A DNA stretch of 28,372 nucleotides from positions 1 through 28,372 of IMG/VR virus record IMGVR_UViG_3300020465_000070. One strand, 5' to 3'. The position numbers were made by a program, and so were the translations under genes. The notes under the pieces were generated by a model. It was not told the origin of the DNA and searched no databases. It worked only from the letters and a program-made list of their open reading frames with translations. Shown here piece after piece: positions 1 through 28,372 of this stretch (the stretch's first letter is position 1; every line of letters starts with the position of its first letter). This DNA is from a virus.

Positions 1-3000
1 ACTGTTGGTGGAAATTTAGATGTAGATGGAACTACAGAATTAGATGTACTAAATGTTGCCGAGACTGCTACATTTACTGGTGCAATTGATGCCAATGGAA
101 ATTTAGATGTTGATGGTCATACTGAATTAGATAACTTAAATGTTTCTGGTGTAGCAACTGTCGCATCTCTTTCAGTCACTGGTAATGTTTCTATTGCAGG
201 AACTATTACTTATGAAGATGTAACCAATGTTGATTCTGTAGGTCTTATAACAGCAAGATCAGGTATTCATATAGATGATAGTATTGTTCATATTGGAGAT
301 ACTGATACTAAAATAAGATTCCCTGCTGCCGATACAATTACTGCAGAAACTGGTGGAACAGAAAGACTTCGTATAACTTCTGCTGGTAATGTTGGTATTA
401 AAACTACAGCACCAAACAATACTTTAACAGTTGGTGATGGTGTTCAAACTTCATATGCACCATCCACTGCTGGAAATTACCTTGAAATTGCTAGAACAAA
501 TGGTGCTGATGCTGGTCTTTTGATTAATAAAAATACAGGTCAGTGGTTAGTTGGTATTGATAACTCTGATGGGGCAAATGCTCCACTTAGATTTGAATAT
601 GGTGCAGCAGGTTCAGCACATCCAGGATTTGGTGCTGGAACTCTTGGAATGATTATAAAGCATGATGGTAAAGTTGGTATCGGAACTGATAATCCTAACT
701 ATAAATTAGTTGTTGCAAAACAAGACAATGTAGTGATGATTAGAGAGGGTGCTGGAACTCTCTCCGGAATGACCAATAATACATCACAGAAACTTTGGTT
801 CCAGGGAGGAAACGCTGAACTTGGATTGTTTAAGGATAGTAGTGGTAATTACGAATATATTCTCGGAACTTGGCAAAGTGCAACTCACATTCCTCTAGTA
901 TTCAGAACTGGAAACCGTGCTGAAAGGATGCGTGTAACTTTTGATGGTAAAGTTGGTATAGGAACCACTAATCCATCTGCAAAATTAGAGGTTAGTGGTG
1001 ATGCAAGAGTTACTGGTATTCTGACTGTTGGTACAAGTTCAGTCACAATAAATGGTAACACAGGTAAAGTTACAGGTGTAAGTGATACACAACTTGCTGC
1101 CATCAGTTCTTCTATCTCTGATACTGCCGTTGATGTATTTGTATATGATACTTCAAAGGATAGTGATGGTGGTGCCTGGAGAAAGAGAACACAGAATACT
1201 TCCTGGTATAATGAGACATTAGGAACAGCAACTAGAGGAACCAGAAAAGAGTTTCCTGCTGTTGCTGTATTTGTTGCAGAATCAAATCCAAATAGAATAA
1301 CAATTTATGATGGTGATGATCCAGACCTCCCAATGTGGATGGTGTTCACGGCGTCAACTAGTACTAACTCAAATTTTTTAGCAGTTGCAGGACAAACGCT
1401 TTCGTCTGTTGCTATGCTAAATGGTGATTTATGTATTGGATTTCCATCCACTAATGGATGGGGAGTCAATCGTGTTAGTTTTGTAGAAGACTCTCAAAAA
1501 TGGTACTGGATTAGTACCTCGCTTTATCATCAAGTTAATAATACAGTTGCTCGAAGAAATGTTGAGGGTGGTTATTATATAGGAAAGGCGTTTAATGGAT
1601 TAGTTAATGCCCTAGTAAATGATGTAGCAATGACCGTACTACCAAATGCACCAATTAGTCCTTCTACTGGACTTCCTATTCCTACTATTGCCGTTGGGAC
1701 TGAAGGTGGTGTGAGTGTGGTTAGGGATGATGGGAATGTTGTTGATTTAACTGGATCTGATACTTATGTAGAATGTAATAATGTATTTTTCAGTGATTAT
1801 GGAAAACTTTTATATGATAATGAAGACACTTCGGTAGTGTATGAAGTAGATATTCCCTCATCTGATATTAACTATGGAGTATATAATAGTATATCAAATG
1901 GCAGAGTAATTTATCCAACAGGAACTCATGGTGGATTTTCTAGTGGTGAAATTAGATTACTAGGAAGAAATATGAGCGAGGGAGGAAAATTAATCACAAA
2001 GGGTGCATTTGCGTTTGATGCGAACGGTGCCAGTGAGACTATTAATGGATTGACATTATTTGATAGGGAAGAATCTGATCCTGCAAAAAACAGTTTAATT
2101 GCTTTTGCCTCCACATCTTATAACACAGGATGGATGCACGGAGATGTCAAAGGTGCTTTCCTGTCTGATACCGATACTACGAATATGACTGGTGGAAATT
2201 TAATTAGTAATGGTGATGCCTGGTCTGGCGCATTATCATCAACATCATCTACACCACCCACTGGATGGACTGGTGGAAATGGTGCAAAATTTAGAACAAA
2301 TAGTGGTGGTGATGGTACATATATTAACCTTGTTAATGCAGGTAGTGCCCAAGGTGGACCAAACTCATATATGTATCAGGCAATTACAACTGTTGCTGGT
2401 AGAAAATATAAAATATCTTTAACTCAAATTCATCATGCAACTATTACAGTATTTTTTGCAGCAGCAGAGACTACTGGTGGATCTCAGTTATTATATAACA
2501 GTTTTACTTCATCATCAGGTAACACTCCAAGAGAATTGTTTGGTACATTTACAGCAACTGGAACTACAACTTATATTAGATTGGGTATTGTTTCAGGAAC
2601 AAATGATTATTGGACTGGTTGGGATAATGTAGTAGTTACAGAAGTTGATGAAGATCGTAGTGTAAATGCAAATGGTCTCCATTCGTTTGGAACAATTACC
2701 AAGAGTGCCGTTGCGACTGGTGCAGAGTTGGTTGCTTATAGTGGGTTTAGTGCTAGCAACTATTTACAACAACCTTATAATTCTGATTTAGCACCAGGAA
2801 CAGCAGCATACAGTGTGTCTTGTTGGTTTAAAACTGGTACATCAAGTACTGATCAATACATATTTGATCGCAATGGTGGTGGTAGTAACAACAGTAGAAA
2901 TCTTTTACTAATTATGAGTAGTGGTGCTTCTGGCAGCTCTGCTAATAAATTTCAATTCTGGCATAGAGATGGCAGCGGAAATGTTTCTGATATACATGTA

Positions 3001-3474
3001 ACAGATAAGGTAGTTACAGATAATATTTGGCATCAAGTTGTTGCAGTAAATGATGGTTCAACTTATAGGGTGTATGTTGATGGAGAAGTATCATCAGTTA
3101 CCAATTCAGTTATACGAAATGTTGGTAATGATAATAGTCCTCCAATGTTTATTGGTATCAGACATAGTGCGGGATCAACATTTATAACAGGAAGTATGGC
3201 ATTGTTTAGATATTCTAAGTCAGCACCTTCACCAGAACAAATCAAGAAGATGTATGAGGATGAGAAACATCTCTTCCAAGAGAACGCTAAAGCAACCTTA
3301 TATGGTTCTTCTGATGCTGTAACTGCACTTGCATTTGATGATGACACTAATCTATTACATGTCGGAACATCAGCAGGACGCAGTGAATTCCAGGGACTAC
3401 GCCGAATAAATAATACAACGGATGCAGTTACTACCGCTATATCAGCATCCAATGGACTTGTAGCGGAGCAATAA
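1..3474 (+). CDS. Tail fibre / adhesion protein with LamG-like domain (5' end outside window)
   Basis: The frame is open from the first base, so this is the 3' part (1157 residues visible) of a larger gene; an internal Met at 520 is not the start. The N-terminal visible part is a run of short beta-repeats (TELDVLNV, TELDNLNV), then a TYEDVTNVDSVGLITAR module, ERLRITSAGN near residue 121 and VGIGT.NP modules near 226 and 319, as in many cyanophage fibres. A central part contains a GGAWRKRT / DPDLPMWMVFT stretch. Near residues 735-880 is a jelly-roll-like region starting NLISNGDAWSG that resembles a carbohydrate-binding module. Residues about 930-1070 look like a concanavalin A/LamG fold (YSVSCWFKTG, WHQVVAVNDG, YRVYVDGE, GSMALFRYSKSAPS). 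Inferred role: receptor-binding or decorating fibre on the virion. The next gene starts 3 nt downstream. The exact virion position is unknown. Confidence 0.85.
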   Translation, partial: TVGGNLDVDGTTELDVLNVAETATFTGAIDANGNLDVDGHTELDNLNVSGVATVASLSVTGNVSIAGTITYEDVTNVDSVGLITARSGIHIDDSIVHIGDTDTKIRFPAADTITAETGGTERLRITSAGNVGIKTTAPNNTLTVGDGVQTSYAPSTAGNYLEIARTNGADAGLLINKNTGQWLVGIDNSDGANAPLRFEYGAAGSAHPGFGAGTLGMIIKHDGKVGIGTDNPNYKLVVAKQDNVVMIREGAGTLSGMTNNTSQKLWFQGGNAELGLFKDSSGNYEYILGTWQSATHIPLVFRTGNRAERMRVTFDGKVGIGTTNPSAKLEVSGDARVTGILTVGTSSVTINGNTGKVTGVSDTQLAAISSSISDTAVDVFVYDTSKDSDGGAWRKRTQNTSWYNETLGTATRGTRKEFPAVAVFVAESNPNRITIYDGDDPDLPMWMVFTASTSTNSNFLAVAGQTLSSVAMLNGDLCIGFPSTNGWGVNRVSFVEDSQKWYWISTSLYHQVNNTVARRNVEGGYYIGKAFNGLVNALVNDVAMTVLPNAPISPSTGLPIPTIAVGTEGGVSVVRDDGNVVDLTGSDTYVECNNVFFSDYGKLLYDNEDTSVVYEVDIPSSDINYGVYNSISNGRVIYPTGTHGGFSSGEIRLLGRNMSEGGKLITKGAFAFDANGASETINGLTLFDREESDPAKNSLIAFASTSYNTGWMHGDVKGAFLSDTDTTNMTGGNLISNGDAWSGALSSTSSTPPTGWTGGNGAKFRTNSGGDGTYINLVNAGSAQGGPNSYMYQAITTVAGRKYKISLTQIHHATITVFFAAAETTGGSQLLYNSFTSSSGNTPRELFGTFTATGTTTYIRLGIVSGTNDYWTGWDNVVVTEVDEDRSVNANGLHSFGTITKSAVATGAELVAYSGFSASNYLQQPYNSDLAPGTAAYSVSCWFKTGTSSTDQYIFDRNGGGSNNSRNLLLIMSSGASGSSANKFQFWHRDGSGNVSDIHVTDKVVTDNIWHQVVAVNDGSTYRVYVDGEVSSVTNSVIRNVGNDNSPPMFIGIRHSAGSTFITGSMALFRYSKSAPSPEQIKKMYEDEKHLFQENAKATLYGSSDAVTALAFDDDTNLLHVGTSAGRSEFQGLRRINNTTDAVTTAISASNGLVAEQ
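230..258 (+). repeat. 29-bp fibre-module repeat, copy 1
   Basis: These 29 bases are identical to 11474-11502 in the 846-aa fibre gene. Both encode DSVGLITAR in the same frame, so the match covers synonymous positions too. Confidence 0.85.
316..390 (+). repeat. 75-bp exact repeat shared with the 581-aa fibre gene, copy 1
   Basis: Base-for-base comparison shows 75 identical bases here and at 5909-5983. They encode the FPAADTITAETGG and ERLRITSAGN modules in frame in both genes. The flanks diverge immediately on both sides. This suggests recent recombination or gene conversion between fibre paralogues. Confidence 0.92.
945..975 (+). repeat. 31-bp fibre-module repeat, copy 1
   Basis: Identical to 6655-6685 in the 581-aa fibre gene. 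It encodes GKVGIGTTNP in both. Confidence 0.88.
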
Positions 3475-5134: not shown

Positions 5135-6880
5135 ATGGCAGTAGGCAATCCAATATCACTTACAGATAATGTTGCATCGAGAATTGTTTCTCAGACTGCG
5201 ACGGCATCTCAAACGGATTTTACTATCTCTGGTGGATATAGACTCAATGCAATAAGTGTATATCGTAATGGTGTCAGACTTGTAAGTGGTAGAGATTATA
5301 GTGCCGCTGATGGTTCGACTGTAGTATTGCTGTCTCCGGCAACTGTATCTGATTCTCTTGAGTTCCATATTTTTGATGACTTTCGTGTTGCTGATGCTAT
5401 TGTATCAAATGCATCTCAACAAAATATTGAAGGAAATATAACGATTACTGGTAATATTGATGCAACTAATGCACAATTACAATCATTAACAGTCACCAAT
5501 GATGTAAGTATTGGTGGAACACTAACATATGAGGATGTAAAAAATATTGATTCTGTCGGAGTTATTACTGCAAGAACCGATGTTCATGTCGGTGCAGGTT
5601 TATCCGTAGTAGGAATATCTACTTTAGGATCTTTGCAAGTTATTGGAACATGTACATTTAATGGTAATATAGATCTTGGTAATGCTTCTAGTGATACAAT
5701 TACTGCCACGGGTAGATTTGATAGTGATTTAATTCCATCTGCCGATGATGAAAAAGATCTTGGAAGTTCCGCTCTTGAATGGAGAAATTTATATCTAGAT
5801 GGAACGGCAAATATTGATACTCTATCCATATCTGGTATCTCTACATTTACTGGCGATGTATTCATAGCAGACAAAATTGTTCATACTGGTGATACAAATA
5901 CTGCCATTAGATTCCCTGCTGCCGATACAATTACTGCAGAAACTGGTGGAACAGAAAGACTTCGTATAACTTCTGCTGGTAATACTGGTATCGGAACTGC
6001 TAATCCAGTAGGAAATCTTGAGGTTAGAGATAGTAAAGCAAACTTAATCGTTGCAAAAGATGGTTTAACAGTCAAATCAAACTCTGATTTGCACACCACA
6101 TACGATATGTTGCAAATTGGTGCTGGTGGTGCATTAGCAAGTTATAGCACCGCAACTGCAACAGCAGATACTCAACTTGTACATAATGCTTACAGACATT
6201 CTGGAGGCACTTTTAAGTATAGGTATGCAGATACTGCTATGAGACTCAGGATGAATAGTCCTGGCGGTACATTTATATTTGAGAGTGCAGCAAGTGGTAG
6301 TGCAAATGCAGATATAACTTTTTCAGAAAAACTTCGTATAACTTCTGCAGGTCTGGTTGGTATCGGAACTAATAATCCAGAAGAAATTTTACATATTTTA
6401 GGTCCAACTGAAACAATTTCTAGCCGTGATGGTGTTACTTTACAACACTCTACTGCAACAGCAGATGCTGATAATGGACTACCTCTTGTTTGGTCTGGAT
6501 ACGTAGGTTCTGGTTCAGGACTTCAAAACTATGGTCTTGCGTCAATTTGTGGAAGAAAAGAAAACTCAAATGCCGATGATGGTGCTGCATATTTACAATT
6601 TGGAATTGGCAGAGCTTCTGGTGCAATTATAGAAAGACTTCGTATCAATTCAGGTGGTAAAGTTGGTATAGGAACCACTAATCCAGCAGTATCACTTGAC
6701 TTAGCAAGTAACACTGATGCTCTTTCACTTCCAACGGGTACAACTGCTCAAAGACCATCTGGCACCGACGCATATATAAGAAAGAATAGTACCAATAATG
6801 CCTTAGAGTTTTATAATGGTACGGAATGGGTAGAAATCATTACTGATTACTTCCCAACTGGTTCCACTACGTTAGGTTGA
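5135..6880 (+). CDS. Tail fibre protein with anchor domain and repeated beta modules, 581 aa
   Basis: The start ATG at 5135 follows the upstream stop by 14 nt. Residues about 10-85 (FTISGGYRLNAISVYRNG, FHIFDDFRVADAI) resemble the N-terminal virion-anchor region of marine phage fibres. Then come stacked short beta-repeats (GNITITGNID, LTVTNDVSIGGTLTYEDV, VGISTLGSLQVIGT), followed by ERLRITSAG and VGIGT.NP modules repeated three times (about residues 274-290, 399-415, 499-517). The C-terminal 45 residues (RPSGTDAYIRKN, ALEFYNGTEWVEI) match a common fibre ending. Shares exact DNA blocks with the fibre at 1-3474. Inferred role: trimeric fibre or whisker-type appendage. Confidence 0.8.
   Translation: MAVGNPISLTDNVASRIVSQTATASQTDFTISGGYRLNAISVYRNGVRLVSGRDYSAADGSTVVLLSPATVSDSLEFHIFDDFRVADAIVSNASQQNIEGNITITGNIDATNAQLQSLTVTNDVSIGGTLTYEDVKNIDSVGVITARTDVHVGAGLSVVGISTLGSLQVIGTCTFNGNIDLGNASSDTITATGRFDSDLIPSADDEKDLGSSALEWRNLYLDGTANIDTLSISGISTFTGDVFIADKIVHTGDTNTAIRFPAADTITAETGGTERLRITSAGNTGIGTANPVGNLEVRDSKANLIVAKDGLTVKSNSDLHTTYDMLQIGAGGALASYSTATATADTQLVHNAYRHSGGTFKYRYADTAMRLRMNSPGGTFIFESAASGSANADITFSEKLRITSAGLVGIGTNNPEEILHILGPTETISSRDGVTLQHSTATADADNGLPLVWSGYVGSGSGLQNYGLASICGRKENSNADDGAAYLQFGIGRASGAIIERLRINSGGKVGIGTTNPAVSLDLASNTDALSLPTGTTAQRPSGTDAYIRKNSTNNALEFYNGTEWVEIITDYFPTGSTTLG
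5909..5983 (+). repeat. 75-bp exact repeat shared between fibre genes, copy 2
   Basis: Identical to 316-390 over all 75 bases, in the same reading frame, with divergent flanks. Confidence 0.92.
5954..5975 (+). repeat. 22-nt ERLRITS repeat family (representative copy)
   Basis: The 22 nt encoding ERLRITS occur identically at 361-382, 5954-5975, 11602-11623, 12031-12052, 12217-12238 and 12517-12538, and with one mismatch at 6326-6347. The copies lie in three different fibre genes. Confidence 0.9.
6655..6685 (+). repeat. 31-bp fibre-module repeat, copy 2
   Basis: Identical to 945-975 in the first fibre gene, encoding GKVGIGTTNP. Confidence 0.88.
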
Positions 6881-11220: not shown

Positions 11221-13761
11221 ATGGCAGTTACCCAATCTACGAATCTTGCAGATTTTTCCAGTGGTGTAGACACTAGTGGTAATACAATCAACGTTGGAAC
11301 TGCTCTCACATTAGGTCATACTCAAGGAGTACAGTTTCATACTCAACATTTACATGCAACAGGTTTTGAAGTTAATAATATTAATGCCTCTGGTATTATT
11401 ACTGCCTCTTCTGCAAACTTCAATGGTAATGTCTCTATTGCTGGAACATTGACCTATGAAGACGTAACTAATATTGATTCTGTAGGTCTTATAACAGCAA
11501 GAACAGGAATAAAAGTTCTTAATTCTGGTGGAGTTCAAGTAGCAACTGGTGCAACAATTAATGGAACAACAAATACAATTACAGCACTGACAAATGGTAG
11601 TGAAAGACTTCGTATAACTTCTGCTGGGAATTTTGGGATTGGTGACACAAACCCTGACTTTAATCTTGTAGTCAAAAGTAGTACAAATACAAACGCTAAC
11701 ATTCTTGCCGTTAAAGATTCTGACGGAATAAAAATGGTATCAGTTGAGCAAGACTCCAACGGCAATGGAAGGTTGTTCGTACGAGATACATCCGGCAATC
11801 CAGATGTATTACTACATACCAATGGCAATAGTTACTTTAATGGTGGAAATGTTGGTGTAGGAACTGATAATCCTGCTCTTAAACTTCACGTTGAAGATTC
11901 TGGTTCTCAAATAATTAGATTTGCAAGAACAGGTATTGGAGCTGGAAGTCTTGATATTGATGGAGATGGTAATGCTGTATTCAATTCTCATACAACTAAT
12001 GCCGATGTAATATTCCACACACAAACAAACGAAAGACTTCGTATAACTTCTGGTGGTGAATTGGTATCAACTAATGGCACACTAAGAAGAAATGTAAGTG
12101 ATAGTTCATTTACAGTTAGTGGTGATAGTGCATCTAATACTGGAGCAAATATCAATCTCTATGGTGCTAGTCATAGCAGTCTTGCAAGTGTATTCAGAGT
12201 AAGAACAGGATCAACAGAAAGACTTCGTATAACTTCTGATGGTACAATTCTTGCCGGTGGTCAATCTAGTAGTTATGACGGTGGATTTGTAAACCTTGAG
12301 TTAAGAAAAGATTCAAATACTGTTGGCGGCAGTATGACTCTTATCAATGACACAGCATCACAAGCAGGTGCAACTTGTGAAATTGATTGTTACCAAAACT
12401 TTAGAGGTGCTGGTAAGATTGTCTTTGGTAGAGAGAATGCCAACAACTGGCAATCATCTGCTGGTGGTGCTGCTTCTTTCCTTGCATTCCATACAAATAA
12501 TGCAGGAACAATTGCAGAAAGACTTCGTATAACTTCTGCTGGTTCAGTCGGTATCGGACTAACTAATCCATCTCATAAACTTCATGTTAATGGAGGACTT
12601 AAGGGAGATTATATAGAAACAAGTGCTCATGCTGTTTGGACTCAATCCGTTGATACAGGGACCGGAGGAGAGTCGGGAGGAGTCATACTTAAAACAAATC
12701 CGGATCAAACTAGTTCTAATTTAAGTGGAGCATTTATATACAGAGTCAGGGCAGTTGTAAAAGGCACCGGTACAGATACGGGGGCTGCGTGGTTAGTCTA
12801 TTACAATGAAGCAGCTGCTCAGTATGTAGTAAGATTTGTCTCTAGGAGCGGAACCAGTTCAAACCATCCTCGACTAAGGATTGTTAATACCAATCAAATG
12901 GAGCTCTATACAACTCATAACAGCAATTATCCTGTAAGAGTCGTCACAGAGAGATTCTATACAGAAGAACCTGATTCTACACTACATGCAATGGGTAGTG
13001 ATTACCATTGGCAAAGAAATGCTAACAATTTAAGTTACACTGATGGTAATATTACTACCAATGCTTTAACCGCGAATCCCCTCAATCTAACGTCAACTAA
13101 TGGTTGGGTAAGGTCTGCATACGGCGCAATTTCTAATAGTACAGTATCAACTCTAAACAATTTATTAATTGGTCAGAATATGAGGGGATACCTCTCTGGA
13201 ATTGACGGAAGTAGTTCTAATAATAATTTCTATCATACTGTAACTCACGGGGCCATGGGGTATAATGGAATTGAATTTTGTTACAATGGAGTAATGAAGT
13301 TCTTCGCCGGTACTGGTGGAACAACTGCTAACAACTCATTCACTCCAGGATTAAGATTCCAAATACAGAACACGATGGCATCATTCATGGATGGCACTTC
13401 TGTATCTCAGGGTGATTCAGTTGCTTTCCATAACGGAATGCGTAGTTACAGCAATAGAGGTTATGTTGCAGGAAACGGCACAGTATCATGTACTCTTAAT
13501 GTTGCTAATTCACAGACTACATATCTTGTAATAGCTGGTTTCAATCACTACGGTCTCTTAAGTTACGGATGTACATACATGGCATTTACTGCAACGGGCA
13601 CATCCGGAGAAACTACAAATATTATTAATGATACTCCCACCAGTCTGGGTGGTGGTTGGTCTGTAAATCAAGGATCCACAACACAACTTGTAGTTAGTAA
13701 ATCTGCGGGTTCCTATGTAGGTGGTGGATACTGGTTTGTCCACATTATGGCGGCGTCTTAA
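11221..13761 (+). CDS. Tail fibre protein, 846 aa
   Basis: The start ATG lies 30 nt after the previous stop, just after a GATATAGGAA leader that gives weak ribosome-binding complementarity. Residues 1-110 are short beta repeats ending in LTYEDVTNIDSVGLITAR. Four ERLRITS modules follow (about residues 128, 271, 333, 433), with linked 'VGVGTDNP.LKLHV' and 'VGIGLTNPSHKLHV' units. From about residue 460 to the end is a unique region (TQSVDTGTGGESGG, NHYGLLSYGCTYMAF, GGGYWFVHIM) that is likely the receptor-binding tip. Followed 12 nt later by a tail-fibre assembly chaperone candidate, which supports a fibre role. Confidence 0.8.
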   Translation: MAVTQSTNLADFSSGVDTSGNTINVGTALTLGHTQGVQFHTQHLHATGFEVNNINASGIITASSANFNGNVSIAGTLTYEDVTNIDSVGLITARTGIKVLNSGGVQVATGATINGTTNTITALTNGSERLRITSAGNFGIGDTNPDFNLVVKSSTNTNANILAVKDSDGIKMVSVEQDSNGNGRLFVRDTSGNPDVLLHTNGNSYFNGGNVGVGTDNPALKLHVEDSGSQIIRFARTGIGAGSLDIDGDGNAVFNSHTTNADVIFHTQTNERLRITSGGELVSTNGTLRRNVSDSSFTVSGDSASNTGANINLYGASHSSLASVFRVRTGSTERLRITSDGTILAGGQSSSYDGGFVNLELRKDSNTVGGSMTLINDTASQAGATCEIDCYQNFRGAGKIVFGRENANNWQSSAGGAASFLAFHTNNAGTIAERLRITSAGSVGIGLTNPSHKLHVNGGLKGDYIETSAHAVWTQSVDTGTGGESGGVILKTNPDQTSSNLSGAFIYRVRAVVKGTGTDTGAAWLVYYNEAAAQYVVRFVSRSGTSSNHPRLRIVNTNQMELYTTHNSNYPVRVVTERFYTEEPDSTLHAMGSDYHWQRNANNLSYTDGNITTNALTANPLNLTSTNGWVRSAYGAISNSTVSTLNNLLIGQNMRGYLSGIDGSSSNNNFYHTVTHGAMGYNGIEFCYNGVMKFFAGTGGTTANNSFTPGLRFQIQNTMASFMDGTSVSQGDSVAFHNGMRSYSNRGYVAGNGTVSCTLNVANSQTTYLVIAGFNHYGLLSYGCTYMAFTATGTSGETTNIINDTPTSLGGGWSVNQGSTTQLVVSKSAGSYVGGGYWFVHIMAAS
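11474..11502 (+). repeat. 29-bp fibre-module repeat, copy 2
   Basis: Identical to 230-258; encodes DSVGLITAR. Confidence 0.85.
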
Positions 13762-26225: not shown

Positions 26226-26948
26226 ATGCCTTTACCAAAGATTGCGACACCGACATATGAGTTGGAATTACCATCAACCGGAAAGAAAATTAGATATAGA
26301 CCTTTTCTAGTTAAAGAAGAAAAGGTTCTTATTATTGCAATGGAATCTGAAGATCAAAAACAAATTACAAATGCAATTAAAACAGTAATTTCTAATTGTA
26401 TTTCATCCCGTGGTGTAAAGGTAGATCAGTTATCTACTTTTGATATTGAATATCTTTTCTTAAACATCAGAGGTAAATCTGTAGGTGAACAAGTCGATGT
26501 TCTTATTACATGTCCTGATGATGAAGAAACACAAGTTCCGGTGACAATCCCTCTTGATGATATCAAAGTTCAGAAAGATCCCGAGCATAATAAAGATATT
26601 AAACTTGATGATAAATTAATCATGAGGATGAGATATCCTTCTATGGCAGAATTTATTAAATCTAATTTTAGTATTTCTGATGGATCTCTTGGTGTATCCG
26701 AATCATTTGATTTGATAGCATCTTGTATTGAACAAGTTTATAGTGAAGAGGAGTCATGGAGTGCTTCTGATTGTACCAAAAAAGAACTTGTGGACTTTAT
26801 TGAGCAATTAAGTTCTAAACAATTTAAAGAAATTGAAAAATTTTTTGAAACAATGCCGAAGTTGTCTCATACAATTATTGTTATGAATCCTAAGACAAAA
26901 GTCGAAAATGAAATTGTTCTGGAAGGGTTATCATCTTTTTTCGCGTGA
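26226..26948 (+). CDS. 26: gp26 baseplate hub assembly protein, 240 aa
   Basis: Matches the T4-like baseplate hub gp26 family: ELPSTGKKIRYRPFLVKEEK, IKTVISNCI, FDIEYLFLNIRGKSVGE, RMRYPSMAEFI and a C-terminal KKELVDFIEQLSSKQFKEIEKFFETMP. T4 gp26 (208 aa) is required for hub assembly. The last codons TCT TTT TTC GCG TGA include a slippery heptamer followed by a hairpin, so a fraction of ribosomes may shift to -1 and read on into gp51, giving a 301-residue fusion. A late-type promoter precedes it. Confidence 0.9.
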   Translation: MPLPKIATPTYELELPSTGKKIRYRPFLVKEEKVLIIAMESEDQKQITNAIKTVISNCISSRGVKVDQLSTFDIEYLFLNIRGKSVGEQVDVLITCPDDEETQVPVTIPLDDIKVQKDPEHNKDIKLDDKLIMRMRYPSMAEFIKSNFSISDGSLGVSESFDLIASCIEQVYSEEESWSASDCTKKELVDFIEQLSSKQFKEIEKFFETMPKLSHTIIVMNPKTKVENEIVLEGLSSFFA

Positions 26949-26978
26949 GTATGGCACATATTGATCTTGTGTCATACT
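26936..26978 (+). promoter_or_regulatory. Predicted -1 programmed ribosomal frameshift signal (gp26/gp51)
   Basis: Slippery heptamer T TTT TTC at 26936-26942, with TTT and TTC as zero-frame gp26 codons. A 5-nt spacer (26943-26947) is followed by an 11-bp hairpin, 26948-26958 pairing with 26968-26978 (one G-U pair, 9-nt loop). A -1 shift continues CGC GTG AGT ATG into the gp51 frame with no stop. The gp26 stop TGA is 26946-26948 and the gp51 ATG (26951) lies in the stem. Elements and spacing are those of known -1 frameshift sites; usage is unproven. Confidence 0.7.
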
Positions 26979-27130
26979 ATAAAATTAATTTTTCCTTGAT
27001 GCAGCACCATAAATACTCATTAACGGAAATAGAAAATATGATTCCGTGGGAAAAAGATGTGTATGTGGCACTTCTTCAACAATATATTGAAGAAGAAAAT
27101 CTAAAACATCAGCAGCAGAATGGTATTTAA
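26951..27130 (+). CDS. 51: gp51-like baseplate hub assembly protein, 59 aa
   Basis: The ATG at 26951 is 2 nt after the gp26 stop; a GTG at 26945 overlapping that stop is an alternative start. The pattern LVSYYKINFSLMQHHKYSLT, EIENMIPWEKDVYVALLQQY, IEEENLKHQ matches the short gp51-like ORF of cyanophages and resembles C-terminal extensions of tail assembly chaperones (hydrophobic-acidic helix followed by 'Y..LL.q.ieee'). Much smaller than T4 gp51 (249 aa). It may be made alone, as a -1 frameshift fusion to gp26, or both. Its stop overlaps the next gene by 11 nt. The ATAAATA at 27009-27015 could be a late promoter for that gene. Confidence 0.75.
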   Translation: MAHIDLVSYYKINFSLMQHHKYSLTEIENMIPWEKDVYVALLQQYIEEENLKHQQQNGI

Positions 27131-28372
27131 TAGTCAGGCATTTAAAGCACCACAATTAGGAAGAAAAAGAGTTTCTATGAAGAAAACTCTGGGTGATGCC
27201 GCTCAGTCTGGAGTAAATCCTGCTACAGGAGAATATCTTAGTTCTGGTGAAAGAAAAGCACTATTTAAAAAAAGAACTGTAAGTGCAGAAAAAGTTTTTG
27301 GAAAACCTGGAGCTCTTGTAAAAATAAACAATCTTGAGTCGATTGTAAAAACAAGTAAAGATGAAGAAAAAAAAGGTGAATCATCAACAGACACAGAATC
27401 ATTAGGAACTAGAGTTTCTTCTCTTGAAAAATCTATTGTTACTATACAAGAATCGATAAAGAAACTATCAGAATTTTTAGTTGATGATGCAAAGAAAGAA
27501 CAGCAGTTATTATTAAAAGGACAGAAGACAGAAGATATTACAAAAGAAAAGGAAAAAAGAAAAAGAAAAGAATTTGGATTAGAATCTGTTGCCAAAGGAA
27601 TTGGTAATACTCTTCTGGCACCAATCAAAGCAATTGGTGGTAAAGTAAAAGGTATTTTGTCTAGAGTATTAGAATTTCTTAAAATTCTTTTTATTGGTTG
27701 GTTGACTGATAAAGGAATAAAAGCTTTTAGATCTTATATGGACGGCAACAAAGAAGAATTTGAAAAAATTAGAAATAATATATTAGGAGCACTTGGTATT
27801 GTTGGGGGCATTATTGCCGGTGTTAGTGGTGGTCTGGCAGTAATTCCGGGATTAGTTTTAGGTATTATTCCTATCATTGCCAAAATTGGTGCGGCAATAG
27901 TAGGATTTTTATTATCTCCAGCCGGATTGATTGCATTGGCAGTCGCAGCAGGTGCTTTTGCAGTTAATAAAATAGATACAATAGTTCGAGGAGGTGCTGC
28001 TGGAGCAGAATATGATGATAAAGCAAAGAAAGAAGCAGCTGAGAGTGGAATAATGATAGGAAGTGGTGGTACTGGTGTATCTCTTTTAAATAAAGATGGC
28101 ACTCTGAGAGAAGTAAATGCATATGATCTTCCGGAAGGTGATCCACAAAAACTTCCAGGTCCAAGTTTAACGGGAAGAAAAGCAATTCCTGGTAAAGAAA
28201 ATAGAAATGCCAGAATTAAGTTAAATTTAAAGAATCCAGCACATAGAGAATATATTAAAAAGGTTGATGGACTAGAGGCTTTTAAACGATATGATGCTGC
28301 CGAAAAATTTTATAGAACACGAATTGCGGAAAAAGATAAAGTAAGAGCAAGCAAAAAAGAAGAGTTAGAAAA
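27120..28372 (+). CDS. Large virion protein, candidate tape measure / baseplate hub protein (3' end outside window)
   Basis: An ATG at 27120 opens a frame that runs to the window end (417 codons, no stop). Residues 1-60 are basic (APQLGRKRVSMKKTLGDA, SGERKALFKKRTVS). About 100-145 is coiled-coil-like (SLEKSIVTIQESIKKLSEFL, KEQQLLLKGQK). A hydrophobic stretch at about 220-285 (LGALGIVGGIIAGVSGGLAV, IPIIAKIGAAIVGFLLS, GLIALAVAAGAFAV) could form two or three membrane helices. The rest is Lys-rich. Basic plus coiled coil plus hydrophobic helices is usual for tape measure proteins, and gp26/gp51-type assembly genes lie directly upstream. Overlaps gp51 by 11 nt. No T4 gp29 motif was recognised for certain, so the identity is inference. 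Confidence 0.65.
   Translation, partial: MVFNSQAFKAPQLGRKRVSMKKTLGDAAQSGVNPATGEYLSSGERKALFKKRTVSAEKVFGKPGALVKINNLESIVKTSKDEEKKGESSTDTESLGTRVSSLEKSIVTIQESIKKLSEFLVDDAKKEQQLLLKGQKTEDITKEKEKRKRKEFGLESVAKGIGNTLLAPIKAIGGKVKGILSRVLEFLKILFIGWLTDKGIKAFRSYMDGNKEEFEKIRNNILGALGIVGGIIAGVSGGLAVIPGLVLGIIPIIAKIGAAIVGFLLSPAGLIALAVAAGAFAVNKIDTIVRGGAAGAEYDDKAKKEAAESGIMIGSGGTGVSLLNKDGTLREVNAYDLPEGDPQKLPGPSLTGRKAIPGKENRNARIKLNLKNPAHREYIKKVDGLEAFKRYDAAEKFYRTRIAEKDKVRASKKEELE

Follow-up and report, generated by a model that had tools for sequence, protein, structure and literature searches.

Does a −1 ribosomal frameshift join gp26 to gp51 in this T4-like cyanophage, so that one locus makes both a short and a long tail assembly chaperone? 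The window, meaning the whole stretch of DNA analyzed, is a 28,372-base virus record whose content is that of a T4-like cyanophage; the features of its gp26/gp51 junction are collected in Table 1. Many tailed phages depend on short and long chaperones of this sort; phage lambda has a comparable pair, a short protein (G) and a −1 frameshift-extended long one (GT), encoded before the tape measure gene. The original prediction proposed gp26/gp51 as the T4-like counterpart of G/GT and knew of no such site described in T4-like phages.

Vladimirov, Gautam and Davidson (2022, Virology 566:9-15) are said to have identified the tail assembly chaperone genes of T4-like phages, and their abstract reportedly states that frameshifting is conserved in several T4-like groups and that T4 uses genes 26 and 51. 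Passages of later papers citing Vladimirov et al. 2022 mention poly-T frameshift signals in T4-like chaperone genes (PMC12846349) and, in some T4-like phages, a short gene with a separate long fusion gene instead of a frameshift (PMC10885494). To judge from these passages, the genes belong to the same family as gp26, with the short/long pair made through a poly-T site or from two genes, and the supposed lack of a described site had been overtaken by publication in 2022. A 2016 review, which cites Levin 1993 and Xu 2013 for lambda G and GT, calls G-GT frameshifting conserved in long-tailed phages "except T4" (PMC5009743). The T4-like frameshift and chaperone arrangement, our main claim, is already known and of an established kind; what may be new is the covariation of the hairpin, the Shine-Dalgarno-like GAG bias and the existence of lineages without a gp51 start.

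Layout of the gp26/gp51 junction

Read directly from the sequence, the 3′ end of gp26 is TCT TTT TTC GCG TGA, which sets the heptamer T TTT TTC in the X XXY YYZ phase of gp26, as had been predicted. Phe238-Phe239 are decoded at the slip site, and only Ala240 remains before the stop; the predicted position, four codons before the end, includes the stop in its count. After the slip the −1 frame reads FF-R-V-S-M-A-H into gp51 without a stop, and the joined product has the 301 residues first proposed (239+3+59). The expected spacer and hairpin are also present, the latter with 11 pairs including one G.U (−14.6 kcal/mol, z −4.1), and the gp51 ATG at 26951 does lie inside its 5′ arm. The window therefore carries a heptamer-plus-hairpin −1 signal: the X XXY YYZ heptamer is in phase, and the structure follows after 5 nt, inside the usual 5-9 nt range. 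At the level of sequence signals, the locus also pairs a short gene with an overlapping frame that stays open and would be entered by a −1 shift at the conserved slippery site.

Table 1. Positions of the features at and around the gp26/gp51 junction in the window.
Feature	Coordinates	Strand	Basis or remark
gp26, short tail assembly chaperone (TAC-N), 240 aa	26226..26948	+	PF12322, phrog_150, AlphaFold model resembles 2ob9
Shine-Dalgarno-like GGAAGGG, 8 nt before heptamer	26921..26927	+	GAG bias at Glu codon
Slippery heptamer T TTT TTC	26936..26942	+	same codon in 130/131 distinct junctions
−1 frame C-terminal extension, R-V-S + gp51 (59 aa), TAC-C domain	26942..27130	+	open frame; phrog_634, phrog_150
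Spacer GCGTG, 5 nt	26943..26947	+	5 nt is the commonest gap to the first paired base
Hairpin, probable frameshift stimulator	26948..26978 (arms 26948-26958 / 26968-26978)	+	folding, covariation
Next gene, tape measure candidate by position only, hydrophobic stretch	27120..28370	+	open at window end

Family searches assign both parts of the joined product. gp26 matches Pfam PF12322, the T4 gp26 family (E 5.5e-77, 258.8 bits against a curated cut-off of 24.5) and phrog_150 (E 1.3e-84), the −1 frame extension matches phrog_634 (E 4.8e-28), and phrog_150, the gp26 family, itself stretches over gp51 (family positions 241-278).

For gp26 of the window, an AlphaFold model (pLDDT 85.7) has as its best solved-structure matches 3fgx (Z 8.2), 2ob9 (Z 7.8), 3klu/YqbN (Z 7.0) and 5ir0 (Z 5.0), and each of these falls inside residues 1-96. 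The second-ranked match, 2ob9, is the HK97 tail assembly chaperone; it aligns over 84 residues at 3.7 Å and 11% identity, with a middling Z and within residues 1-92 only, so that it resembles the N-terminal part of a gp26 model that has an extra domain of about 150 residues. 3fgx and YqbN are presumably prophage tail chaperone-type proteins too. A Foldseek comparison of the gp26 model with solved structures returned nothing at E <0.001 (2ob9 ranked 7th, probability 0.72), and a sequence search of solved structures gave no useful match. For a T4-type gp51 model no informative fold match was found, and the chaperone likeness was not reproduced there. We regard the modeled fold match of gp26 to the HK97 chaperone as support rather than proof.

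Unlike in lambda G/GT, the tape measure neighbor is a candidate by position only. The window's next gene gave no convincing match in Pfam or phrog family searches, and in other cyanophages the gene at the corresponding place matches families that carry an endolysin label; only phiM12 yielded anything nearby, with weak matches of the large gene two places on to the tape measure families phrog_305 and phrog_4200. We therefore do not name the adjoining gene a tape measure gene, as the original prediction had been inclined to do. Elsewhere in the window, the motif ERLRITSAG..GIGT, or a near variant of it, recurs in three separate large ORFs (1-3474, 5135-6880 and 11221-13761), a pattern that would fit repeat exchange or duplication in tail fibre-like genes.

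Conservation of the heptamer, stem and upstream element

The bare heptamer is common in the AT-rich window (17 found, 16.2 expected), which is not above chance; we dropped its count as an argument and relied on where the heptamer lies and how well it is conserved. Scanning viral contigs twice, we obtained 160 gp26/gp51 loci with 131 distinct junctions among them. The gp51 frame is −1 relative to gp26 in all 160 loci, and comparison of the junctions, along the lines first suggested for this site, places TTTTTTC at the identical codon in 130 of the 131. The sole junction without the heptamer (L084, upstream of 1902) apparently lacks the usual gp26 end, which could reflect a deletion, damage to this copy or faulty assembly.

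From the heptamer-bearing junctions we picked 98 representatives less than 90% identical to one another. In codon counts that ignore shared descent, Phe-Phe at the site is written TTT TTC in 98/98 representatives, compared with 5/97 Phe-Phe pairs elsewhere in gp26. The preceding codon specifies Ser, Ala, Asn or Asp, yet its third base is always T, and an in-phase TTTTTTC occurs at just 2 of 21,006 other gp26 codon positions. Because the gp26 proteins of the relatives are so diverged from that of the window (about 55-81% identity), neutral retention of the heptamer is implausible.

The stem is conserved less strictly. At least 9 of its 11 pairs are kept in 76/98 representatives. Arms taken from the same sequence pair at 0.843, whereas arms permuted among sequences give 0.797 (sd 0.005), with 0.812 as the highest of 1000; the 45-nt stretch past the heptamer has a mean folding z of −3.2. 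The pair 26956/26970 appears in relatives as T-A (54), G-C (12) and A-T (10), with 29 changes by parsimony on the gp26 tree. Conservation of spacer and stem across relatives was thus borne out in part: a distance of 5 nt from heptamer to first paired base is the commonest value (48/98) and the stem pairs covary, but roughly one in five cyanophage lineages has no hairpin of this form; such lineages show other hairpins at a greater distance or no hairpin at all. The hairpin of S-PM2 is a different one of 14 bp, and no good hairpin was found after the site in P-SSM7 and HTVC008M. Because of these other lineages, the stem seems to stimulate the slip without being indispensable.

Upstream of the heptamer, most relatives carry GGAGGG where the window has the weaker GAA GGG form. 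The Glu codon of a conserved E-G-L is GAG in 83/98 representatives, compared with 28% of other gp26 Glu codons, which places GAGG about 10 nt before the heptamer. The −1 signal of E. coli dnaX consists of a Shine-Dalgarno-like stretch upstream at a similar spacing, a heptamer, and a hairpin after about 5 nt. The window has the same three-part layout, with two differences: the slippery sequence is another one, and the frameshift product is here longer, not shorter, than the zero-frame product. The heptamer of lambda G/GT likewise differs from T TTT TTC.

One gene or two in T4-like phages

We counted PF12322 genes in 18 complete phage genomes and found one in 15 and two in the remaining 3 (T4, RB43-type and RB49-type). 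The single-copy phages infect or belong to Synechococcus, Prochlorococcus, Pelagibacter, Vibrio (including KVP40), Aeromonas (Ah1), Stenotrophomonas, Sinorhizobium (two phages) and Pseudoalteromonas. Fourteen of the 15 have an in-phase T6-C, T6-T, T6-G or T6-A 6-12 nt before the stop together with an open −1 frame; no T6-N site with an open −1 frame was found in the two-copy T4, RB49-type and RB43-type phages (3/3). The remaining single-copy phage, Vibrio phage K364 (L194), has no canonical heptamer in its gp26-type gene and reads ACG CTT TTT GCG TAA TG; slippage there could use the lone TTT codon, or the long form could be made another way.

In T4, gp26 is the short form, and gp51 consists of PF12322 (residues 1-201) plus the gp51 domain, colinear with the cyanophage frameshift product. 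Judged by sequence, T4 gp51 is the frameshift product fixed as one gene. T4 genes 26 and 51 are divergent, and the RB43-type phage has its pair in tandem, as expected after a duplication. In Citrobacter phage Xman (L176:2001-3294) the long (51) and short (26) genes follow each other in tandem with an 8-base overlap, in contrast to the divergent T4 pair; this order is a possible trace of the duplication. In T4, baseplate assembly requires gp51, although the particle does not contain it, and both gp26 and gp51 have been classed as hub assembly chaperones (PMC3004832).

Free gene, fused domain and the proposed mechanism

Whether gp51 is a gene in its own right turns on its start codon. An ATG stands at the fourth −1 codon past the slip, 2 nt after the gp26 stop, in 88/98 representatives. 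It is missing in the other 10, although these have lost neither the heptamer nor the open −1 frame; six of these have an ATG three codons further on, and one has no ATG, GTG or TTG nearby. No stop was found in the −1 path from the slip into gp51 in any of the 98, and no Shine-Dalgarno sequence before the gp51 ATG of the window. In the public records of P-SSM7 (L171:5709-5896), S-WAM2 (L172:3715-3892) and Aeromonas phage Ah1 (L166:4718-4883), gp51 is omitted or cut to 31 residues; the frame reached by a −1 shift is open in all three and has no usual start codon.

These data bear on a reading in which gp51 stands as a normal gene of its own, its translation coupled to the gp26 stop beside its ATG, and the slippery run is incidental. 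The ATG next to the stop in most representatives agrees with coupling, as do the start codons touching or near the stop in the distant phages KVP40 and phiM12, but the lineages that lack this ATG while keeping heptamer and open frame do not, nor does a heptamer held at the nucleotide level against strong codon bias. An independent gp51 gene is weakened further by the fused, two-domain T4 gp51, and we consider coupling alone very unlikely. Because of the missing ATGs and the T4 fusion, gp51 looks better described, on the sequence evidence, as the C-terminal domain of a long chaperone than as a gene; the missing ATGs, the lack of a Shine-Dalgarno sequence, the annotation gaps and the span of phrog_150 all fit a domain reached by frameshifting.

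A mixed outcome, in which the frameshifted long chaperone is accompanied by some free gp51 and the hairpin tunes initiation at the ATG, is somewhat less improbable, though we still think it unlikely. Most relatives retain the ATG, which forms part of the stem; since ATG and stem overlap, keeping the one may simply follow from keeping the other, and the ATG has no Shine-Dalgarno sequence before it. We know of no role for a free T-type domain. The earlier suggestion that the hairpin also represses free gp51 initiation gained no positive support, given that absence of a Shine-Dalgarno sequence. We give little credence to a cyanophage hairpin with two jobs, stimulating the slip and hiding the ATG so that no free C-terminal domain is made; if it were so, one element would set the balance of short and long chaperone. 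Six-T runs are slippery for some polymerases, so the poly-T run could instead work by transcriptional slippage, but six T is short, a stem after the site would be unneeded, and the heptamer phase, 5-nt spacer and covarying stem fit ribosomal slippage; we rate this the least probable of the alternatives.

Our preferred reading, to which we assign a probability of roughly 0.93 from the sequence evidence, is that a −1 frameshift joins gp26 to gp51 and that gp26 and gp26-gp51 are the short and long tail assembly chaperones. The proposed correspondence to G/GT is supported by the conserved signals, the domain make-up, the copy pattern and precedent. We infer that slipping happens, how often it does, and the chaperone action. 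Most ribosomes would stop at 26946 and release the 240-residue short chaperone; a minority would slip back one base on T TTT TTC and read gp51, giving the 301-residue long chaperone. The hairpin would help the slip, and the Shine-Dalgarno-like stretch upstream perhaps would too. By analogy with lambda G/GT, the tape measure protein may be coated by both forms, and the long form may use its additional C-terminal domain to recruit the tail tube or hub protein.

The products of T4 genes 26 and 51 have long been described as baseplate hub proteins without a clear role; the finding supports the idea that they are the two forms of one tail assembly chaperone. It also accounts for the absence or truncation of gp51 in some phage annotations. 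Marine T4-like phages would make both chaperone forms from one gene by frameshifting, and one-gene and two-gene phages offer a natural comparison for why both forms are needed.
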